A stretch of 11,453 nt of DNA from Candidatus Zixiibacteriota bacterium (GTDB taxonomy: Bacteria > Zixibacteria > MSB-5A5 > CAIYYT01). Positions 5,131 to 11,430 of this stretch are shown piece after piece. A program made the position numbers and the translations under genes. Under the pieces are notes generated by a model. That model saw nothing but the letters and a program-made list of their open reading frames with translations. It ran no database searches and was not told the DNA's origin. The stretch spans positions 1 through 11,453 of the forward strand of contig JAPLUP010000210.1 in assembly GCA_026397575.1 (NCBI GenBank). The letters run 5' to 3'. Numbering within the stretch: position 1 is the stretch's first letter; each line of letters opens with the position of its first letter.

Positions 5131-5270
5131 CTTTACTCCTCTTGGCCAATCAACGCAAATAAACGGTTGCTCACGTGCCCTTTCCTCATCAATGCAATTG
5201 CCCAGCAGTTCCATAATCATTACAACAACACCGCCGACCGCCGCAAATACTACGTGGTGGAGTTTTGTAT

Positions 5271-5297
5271 GTCAAAACCGAAGCGGTTTTGACCTAC
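5271..5297 (-). repeat. REP-like hairpin, copy B (with GTAG)
   Basis: Arms GTCAAAACCG / CGGTTTTGAC around a three-base loop, identical to copy A over all 23 bases. On the minus strand the canonical REP tetranucleotide GTAG directly abuts the foot of the hairpin (CTAC at 5294-5297 on the plus strand). It lies about 40 bp beyond the tryptophanase stop and upstream of the GT4 gene. It is the best-preserved copy in the window. Confidence 0.8.
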
Positions 5298-5314
5298 AAC
5301 CAATCGAACCCATC

Positions 5315-10741: not shown

Positions 10742-10769
10742 GTGCATGCTGCAAAAAAGCAGCATGCAC
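10742..10769. repeat. 11-bp perfect stem with A6/T6 loop downstream of RAYT
   Basis: Arms GTGCATGCTGC and GCAGCATGCAC pair perfectly around six A residues. There is no T-tract on either side for intrinsic termination. It lies 73 bp past the RAYT stop. It lacks a GTAG foot, so it is not of the same type as the other REP-like copies. It could terminate or stabilise the RAYT transcript or be an element end. Confidence 0.6.
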
Positions 10770-10818
10770 GCTGACGCGAGAAAGGAACACAATCATATTC
10801 CAGATATTCCTGGGGCAC

Positions 10819-10838
10819 GACATGCCCTTACGCATGTC
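10819..10838. repeat. 7-bp stem-loop just after the RAYT stop codon
   Basis: Arms GACATGC / GCATGTC around CCTTAC, ending four bases before the RAYT stop codon. The arms share the core CATGC with the larger hairpin at 10742-10769. Functions as a 3' end structure or as part of a RAYT-associated end are both possible. Confidence 0.45.
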
Positions 10839-10842
10839 AGCT

Positions 10843-11430
10843 TCACCTGACGTAGTATCGATCCAACTCCCATTTCAATGGGTTGTTAATTATGTATTCT
10901 CTTTTCTCGGCAAGGTCTTTTTCGTCGCGGATGACGTGCTCGTAGTAGTTGCGTTGCCAGATTCGTTCGCCGGGAGTGTGGGTGACGACGTTGATGTCTC
11001 TCGTGGTCAGATATTTGAAGTAGGCGATAATTTGGCCGAGAGTCTGCACGTTGGGGTTGGGCAAGGGTTTGGAGACCAAACCCCTACGCGGGTTAGCTCG
11101 TGCGTCGTTGGTTGATTGGGGCGCGGGGACCGCGCCCGTACGCGGGGTGGCAGATTCGCGGTCGTGAAGTACTATGATGCCGTGGAAGTGATTGGGCATG
11201 ATCGTGAAGGCGTCGAGTTCGACAAACTGAAAGCGAATCGTCAGTCTGTACCACCAATCATGCACGATCTGCCCAAAGCTCGAAAGCGCCACCGTCTCGT
11301 TGCGGACATCGCCAAGGAACATTTTTCTGTCGAGAGCACAGATCGTAATGAAATATGCGCCTGCCTGGGAATAGTCGTAGTCTTGCAGGCGGATGGAGCG
11401 GCGATGATGGGTGTTAGGGTCGTAGTTCAA
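10843..11430 (-). CDS. REP-associated tyrosine transposase (RAYT; HUH/Y1 superfamily)
   Basis: A 195-residue single-strand DNA endonuclease/strand transferase of the Y1 (IS200-like) superfamily, the RAYT branch. RAYTs act on REP hairpins rather than on a mobile copy of themselves. Seen here: the N-terminal HHRRSIRLQDYDYSQAGAYF block (8-27), ITICALDR (28-35), the HUH metal-binding motif in MPNHFHGIIV (His81, His83), and the C-terminal WQRNYYEHVIRDEKDL (158-173) with the catalytic tyrosine as Tyr162 or Tyr163. YIINNP follows at 179-184. The domain appears complete. Residues about 91-128 are a proline- and arginine-rich linker containing two 18-residue repeats that coincide with DNA hairpins. 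The start is TTG, chosen because the family N-terminus aligns there; a GAGAG stretch is 10-15 bases upstream. It stands alone with no visible insertion-sequence ends. Confidence 0.88.
   Translation of the reverse strand: MNYDPNTHHRRSIRLQDYDYSQAGAYFITICALDRKMFLGDVRNETVALSSFGQIVHDWWYRLTIRFQFVELDAFTIMPNHFHGIIVLHDRESATPRTGAVPAPQSTNDARANPRRGLVSKPLPNPNVQTLGQIIAYFKYLTTRDINVVTHTPGERIWQRNYYEHVIRDEKDLAEKREYIINNPLKWELDRYYVR
11065..11087 (-). repeat. GTAG-hairpin inside RAYT, unit 2
   Basis: On the RAYT sense strand GTAG directly abuts a perfect hairpin with arms GGGTTTGG / CCAAACCC and loop TCT. It encodes part of the linker peptide PRRGLVSKP (residues 114-122). It lies exactly 54 bp from the matching module at 11119-11141. 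Confidence 0.75.
11119..11141 (-). repeat. GTAC-hairpin inside RAYT, unit 1
   Basis: On the RAYT sense strand GTAC abuts a perfect hairpin with arms GGGCGCGG / CCGCGCCC and loop TCC. It encodes part of the linker peptide PRTGAVPAP (residues 96-104). Compared with unit 2, three adjacent stem pairs are changed on both arms so that pairing is kept. Confidence 0.75.

Follow-up and report, generated by a model that had tools for sequence, protein, structure and literature searches.

Why does a gene for a REP-associated transposase (RAYT, or TnpA_REP) carry two REP-like hairpins inside its own coding sequence? The linker region in which they lie could offer a clean case for asking whether a mobile repeat within a gene is tolerated or used. 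The gene stands near one end of the 11,453-nt stretch of DNA analysed here (the window), which is contig 677 of the 719 that make up the 3.09-Mb draft host genome. The contig stops 23 bp upstream of the 5' side of the gene, so that the 5' flank is absent from it, and the 3' side holds only a weak REP-like element. The relevant features are the following.

10843..11430, minus strand: RAYT (TnpA_REP) gene, 195 aa, TTG start (ORF listing, profile and structure match)
11020..11175, minus strand: variable β3-αC linker, residues 86-137 (motif parse, pLDDT)
11119..11141, minus strand: module 1, forward REP GTACGGGCGCGGTCCCCGCGCCC, composed of GTAC and GGGCGCGG-TCC-CCGCGCCC; of the type of the host's own REPs
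11065..11087, minus strand: module 2, forward REP GTAGGGGTTTGGTCTCCAAACCC, composed of GTAG and GGGTTTGG-TCT-CCAAACCC; of a type found in cyanobacteria
10813..10831, minus strand: weak REP-like element GTAAGGGCATGTCGTGCCC, 11 bp past the RAYT stop codon, with a stem of 5-6 bp by eye

The encoded protein is a member of TnpA_REP subclass 2.4, i.e., RAYT group 4; the group, defined by Bertels et al., is matched to the subclass in Quentin et al. 2018 (PMC6006769). The motifs given there for subclass 2.4 correspond to NHFH (residues 80-83; HuH motif NH[IFV]H), WQ (within WQRNYYEH) and YIINNP (YIxNNP) in the translation. In an alignment of 58 sequences, M78, P79, H81, and H83 are invariant, and W158, Q159, Y179, N183, and P184 are invariant or nearly so. 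Profile searches detect the protein weakly: NCBIfam NF047646 (REP-associated transposase) scores 71.3 bits, below its cut-off of 80, no Pfam family is found at E 0.001, PHROGs gives one weak unnamed family, and phmmer against PDB returns one weak match (PDB ID: 4er8, E 0.00043). The same entry, a TnpA_REP with REP hairpin, is the top PDB match of the AlphaFold model in Foldseek (E 1.5e-6), followed by the ISDra2 and IS608 transposases, and the predicted structure has the Y1 HuH transposase fold. In the model (mean pLDDT 84, core 91-98), a strand at residues 81-88 and a helix at 131-150 enclose a low-confidence stretch, with block pLDDT of 50-56 at residues 91-120 and 77 at 121-130. Both hairpins are encoded within residues 91-120. 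This is the variable insertion between β3 and αC, whose length ranges from 18 to 116 aa in the parsed homologous genes.

The two modules were found to be as a sequence-only reading had described them: GTA(G/C)-headed hairpins with perfect 8-bp stems and 3-nt loops, 54 bp apart, with stem interiors of CGC/GCG in one and TTT/AAA in the other, encoding the parallel peptides PRTGAVPAP (residues 96-104) and PRRGLVSKP (residues 114-122). Allowing at most one mismatch, the pattern GTASGGGNNNGGTNNCCNNNCCC occurs twice in the window, where 0.01 occurrences would be expected, and none of 200 shuffles reached two; the seven other genes of the window contain no such hairpin in 8,835 bp. Folded as single-stranded DNA, module 1 has an energy of -11.3 kcal/mol (z -2.5) and module 2 of -7.8 kcal/mol (z -2.9). 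Synonymous recoding of the linker produced two such hairpins in 81 and one in 4,678 of 100,000 sequences. The shuffles and the recoding together rule out a chance origin.

As to their kind, GTAG REPs are palindromes of 20-40 bp with an unpaired GTAG at one end; module 2 has this head, while module 1 carries GTAC, one change away. A GT[AG]G head and a stem foot of three G-C pairs, or a double foot, are described by Quentin et al. 2018 (PMC6006769). The tag of Rickettsia RPEs and of the CGTC superfamily occurs at neither head: in R. conorii, RPEs have CGTC at the end, and CGTC repeats are apparently without a dedicated transposase (PMC3733652). The earlier comparison with Rickettsia therefore holds only in the sense that both are palindromes inside genes. 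A REPIN, which consists of two inverted REPs, was also considered and rejected for the window, in which both modules point forward.

The common orientation and the 54-bp spacing might suggest that one 54-bp unit was duplicated inside the gene, as the sequence-only reading had allowed. Repeated units of one type do occur in the linkers of L050, L078, and L147, where REPs of the same class follow each other in one orientation, which looks like growth by tandem copying. For the window, such an origin is scarcely credible and largely refuted: the modules belong to different REP types, the units agree at only 12 of 31 positions beyond the 23-bp REP, and a direct-repeat search (seed 9, minimum length 14) found none between the two units. 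The shared flank CCCGCGTA need not mean duplication, because a free-standing copy of module 1 on contig C714 of the host genome has the same flank on its 5' side; this copy differs from module 1 by one base and also has CCCGC ahead of GTAC. The two best other protein matches, P0002 and P0003 (61 and 57% identical), encode GAETAPLR and then RRGLVSKP at the matching places, i.e., as read from peptides only, module 1 reversed and module 2 as in the window. The mismatch of the units and this orientation led to the rejection of a 54-bp tandem duplication. The same peptides suggest that module 2 is probably older than the split from P0002 and P0003, and that module 1 may have been either flipped or inserted anew relative to them. 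P0002 additionally encodes the REP-like peptides RRGAVSAP and GRGDLAPT ahead of an HHRRS motif.

In-frame REPs in this loop of RAYTs are already published as a kind, and the window is a further case. According to Quentin et al. 2018 (PMC6006769), REPs inserted within tnpA_REP genes are unique to subclass 2.4, are in frame and predominant, and generally lie between HuH and Y; every tnpA_REP has a REP family of its own. Compared with those insertions, the window combines REPs of two types that share one direction, and one of these types was not found elsewhere in the host phylum. In the accessible parts of that article, no comparison of linkers with flanks, homologous pairs, frame count, or foreign-type REP in a gene was found. 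Titles and abstract beginnings in the open literature, exclusive of preprints and supplements, yielded no further paper on REPs inside RAYT genes, and no passage on them was found in PMC2817692 or PMC8266576. Di Nocera et al. 2013 (PMC3733652) report GTAG-tagged palindromes inside many coding sequences, including those of uvr and other repair genes; in the window, by contrast, the gene concerned is the REP-associated transposase itself.

How general the arrangement is can be judged from the homologues, which number 7,959 in total, 120 of them being among the matches listed. A set of 124 loci (L031-L154; 58 + 29 + 37) and the window gave 108 distinct parsed RAYT genes, with start codons and linker ends set by motif rules rather than annotation; 18 of the 124 loci gave no gene, one of these (L118) being a second copy of L041. 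An earlier motif parse had taken 34 of 58 loci. A hairpin headed by GT[AG]N is present in the linker of 86 of the 108 genes (85 of 107 without the window), and no linker REP was found in the other 22. With both strands of double-foot elements counted, 144 REP calls fall in linkers and 14 outside; after trimming of the frame ends, six heads remain outside the linker, two of them fully paired. GTA[GC]GGG heads number 135 in 15.7 kb of linker versus 6 in 40.7 kb of core, i.e., they are about 60 times denser per base, and 113 of the 135 are paired at four of four interior positions, compared with 0.3% of shuffles. Perfect 7-bp hairpins occur in 92 of 108 linkers versus 13.2 expected under synonymous recoding. 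The 108-gene survey thus bears out the earlier proposal that the linker consists of in-frame REP elements. A forward REP followed by a reverse one, the order resembling a REPIN, was found in 26 of the 108 linkers, whereas the two modules of the window point the same way.

The reading frames of these units speak to what was inserted. Forward units are distributed over the three frames as 48, 28, and 0 (n=76, with 20 double-foot units counted as forward) and reverse units as 20, 25, and 1; none of the 76 forward units stands in the frame with an in-frame TAG. Since five of six frames are used (one of them once) and the TAG frame never, the inserted entity is DNA, not a peptide. A selected linker peptide, e.g., a recognition or partner-binding motif, from whose codon choice the hairpins would follow, is disfavoured and very improbable. 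It would fit the likeness of the two window peptides (PRxGxVxxP) and one group of homologues that keeps VGATR(Q/H) without the full hairpin. However, insertion in five frames and both orientations gives peptides as unlike as VGARLPRP, RRGEVLSP, GGETPPLR, and ERGNRAPT, synonymous recoding rarely yields the hairpins, and the loop is of low model confidence. A peptide-driven origin was rejected on the frames and the recoding.

The REPs fall into many stem and loop classes, and the class present in a linker tends to recur beside the same gene. REPs occur in linker and flanks alike in 57 genes. In 35 of these, a linker REP is at least 80% like one lying no more than 1.5 kb from the gene, as measured beyond the common foot; 300 permutations of the flanks gave 3.1 such genes on average and never more than 8. 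At five loci (L036, L042, L090, L096, and L107), an inverted REP pair of the linker has a homologous counterpart next to the gene, and the homology extends to the spacer (7-59 columns, z from 3.7 to 7.2). No convincing spacer likeness was found for the linker and flank pairs of L076, L112, and L122 (z -0.4, 2.2, and 1.7).

REP class also follows the RAYT tree, which was built from the protein without its linker: 19 changes are required versus 46.4 in shuffles, with none of 200 as low, counting the 70 of 108 rows that belong to nine classes and leaving uncounted the 38 without REP or with rarer classes. The classes derive from our own regular expressions, and 55 of the 105 inner branches of the tree are open. 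The window lies in a 20-row set in which 15 rows, including its own, carry one REP class. Its nearest row is the cyanobacterial RAYT L031 (SH-aLRT 90), which is one of the 22 genes without a linker REP and has five REPs of the window's class on its 5' side. In the genomes of 11 homologues with a window-class linker REP, seven hold 7-81 matches to the pattern. The genomes of L032 and L049 hold two matches each, equal to the count of their own linkers, and those of L039 and L045, with linker heads GTGG and GTAA, hold none; the reversed controls gave 0.

The two modules of the window differ in where their types recur. The sequence-only reading had named a lack of further copies in the genome as evidence against it, and this applies in part: copies exist for module 1 but not for module 2. 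The class pattern has seven other matches without mismatch in the host genome, five of them with the CGC stem (reversed control 0); with at most one mismatch, it has 10 further matches, seven of them with the CGC stem of module 1 (reversed control 1). The consensus of these host REPs is GTAGGGGCGCGGTCTCCGCGCCC. By ORF reading alone, which leaves out C86 and a pair at C326 as not assignable, no copy is clearly inside a real gene; for seven copies, a longer ORF ends 8-50 bp away, and one of these copies, on C645, is also within an open frame of 503 aa whose start is uncertain. In G019, a genome of the same genus, there are three class matches at two sites (control 1), and no RAYT was found at E 1e-20. 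Other Y1 proteins of the host genome are only distantly like the window RAYT (best E 3.5e-6).

For module 2, the window copy is the only one in the host genome and across 132 genomes of the phylum. Within the scope of the search, namely this phylum and one cyanobacterial class, its type occurs in six of the 388 genomes of that class, with 26, 5, 4, 4, 2, and 1 matches and a reversed control of 0 in all six; it is absent from three cyanobacterial genomes. One cyanobacterial copy directly follows a RAYT gene (L238) whose product is 44% identical to the window RAYT, 14 bp past its last sense codon. A motif parse of 25 cyanobacterial loci found this one RAYT, and no TTT-type REP inside it. Module 2 may be a remnant of an earlier host that the gene brought with it when it moved horizontally.

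Taken together, the hairpins are REPs of the GTAG superfamily that sit in frame in the exposed β3-αC loop of a subclass 2.4 RAYT, and it is probable that the REP type of each such RAYT accumulates in and next to its own gene. The data show directly that the modules are REPs, where they lie, which frames are read, that linker and flank REPs are alike, and that five homologues have matching pairs in linker and flank. The loop would tolerate REPs because it is flexible and five of six frames are open. The RAYT itself may have done the inserting, self-insertion being likely, and it may act preferentially near its own gene; once in place, linker copies would be protected from deletion by the need to keep the frame. 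Module 1 has the REP type now present in the host, and module 2 would have that of a former one. Counting against this are the 22 of 108 genes without a linker REP, the four of 11 genomes without a surplus of matches, the GTAC head of module 1 in place of GTAG, and the fact that the cyanobacterial reading rests on six of 388 genomes.

Whether the linker copies have any role in the gene is a separate matter. REPs might simply land anywhere, survive in permissive surface loops near their source, play no role there, and decay. Tolerance of this sort is a strong contender, only a little short of probable. Quentin et al. 2018 (PMC6006769) favour insertion in the linker as a peripheral extension of little effect, and ordinary genes take up REPs as well. 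In two Chloroflexi genomes, 40 REP sites other than those of RAYT linkers were sampled, though not randomly, and 11 of them fall within open frames of at least 120 aa. For five of these frames, a Pfam family exceeds its cut-off (in one case weakly). These five genes, each with an in-frame REP of the window's class, encode a UvrD-like helicase (L187), a protein with a weak GH16 match (L196), MoeA (L199), type III pantothenate kinase (L204), and a ferredoxin/DmsC-like protein (L206).

Decay is visible in several RAYT genes that stand outside the 108. In L165, 80% identical to the L036 protein, GCAG replaces GTAG and the second hairpin is damaged. L175, L176, L177, and L179 keep VGATR(Q/H), but the outer portion of their far arm is by eye no longer there; it is likewise missing by eye in L182, which has a near form of the peptide. 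The linkers of these last five also keep DGSPLPxGPKP, possibly a REP-derived peptide kept as protein. The sequence-only reading had named homologues that conserve the peptide but not the pairing as evidence against its view, and the VGATR(Q/H) group without the outer far arm partly answers this description.

Against mere tolerance stand two observations. Among the 99 genes with both 500-bp flanks, an intact hairpin is present in 62 linkers versus 25 of the 5' and 29 of the 3' flanks; the rest of the coding sequence has one in two of these genes. At the five loci with homologous pairs, linker and flank copies differ at 4 of 166 stem positions, 4 of 30 loop positions, and 52 of 171 spacer positions, and the four stem differences form two compensated pairs with no one-sided change (detection of the pairs required pairing, which biases towards intact stems, not towards identical ones). 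Selection of the hairpins as nucleic acid would account for both, e.g., through autoregulation by a RAYT that binds its own mRNA or the single-stranded form of its gene, or through a linker copy that serves as a founder substrate travelling to new hosts. It is also in keeping with the likeness of linker and flank REPs, the agreement of class with tree, and the foreign-type REP carried in the window. However, the same data could also result from gene conversion, from recent insertion, or from the shielding of linker copies against deletions that break the frame, and homologues that lost the pairing, together with genes lacking a linker REP, argue the other way; such selection appears possible but unlikely. 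Tolerance and retention are both kept, because the excess in the linker would also arise if the need to keep the frame protected linker copies from deletion. Selection for the hairpins is unproven, since some homologues keep the peptide without the pairing and ordinary genes carry in-frame REPs. The earlier suggestion that the hairpins are kept at the nucleic-acid level is favoured by the compensated stem changes and weakened by the peptide-only group and by module 2 being uncopied in the genome.

A bolder form of the same idea is doubtful and offered tentatively: the linker might be an in-gene record of the enzyme's substrate, a founder travelling with the gene, kept as a hairpin by selection and seeding REPs in a new host, with the window still carrying the REP of a former host of cyanobacterial type. 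Recognition and spread of REPs by RAYTs have been tested in vitro for few pairs, three TnpA_REP/REP pairs being reported by Corneloup et al. 2021 (PMC8266576). Should the loop hold a record of the cognate REP, the whole enzyme group's recognition code might be readable from sequence, RAYT sequences would be labelled by the thousand with their own cognate DNA hairpin, and embedded copies could be used to track RAYT genes moving between phyla.

The host genome contains further palindromes. One, TCAAAACCG-nnn-CGGTTTTGA, lies in the window at 5265-5299 and 1786-1822, and some of its copies are headed by GTAGG; allowing at most two mismatches, it has 32 sites in the host genome (reversed control 0). 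Three copies are located on contig C603 (positions 752, 1279, and 1857), two of which flank a different Y1 transposase frame (1312-1878), one at each end, the frame overlapping the 5' copy as read. This palindrome and the C603 transposase look like a second transposase/REP pair of the host. On C326 and C714, other REP-like palindromes adjoin window-class copies by eye. Finally, a perfect intergenic hairpin, GTGCATGCTGC / GCAGCATGCAC, lies downstream of the RAYT gene at positions 10742-10769 of the window and is perhaps a terminator.
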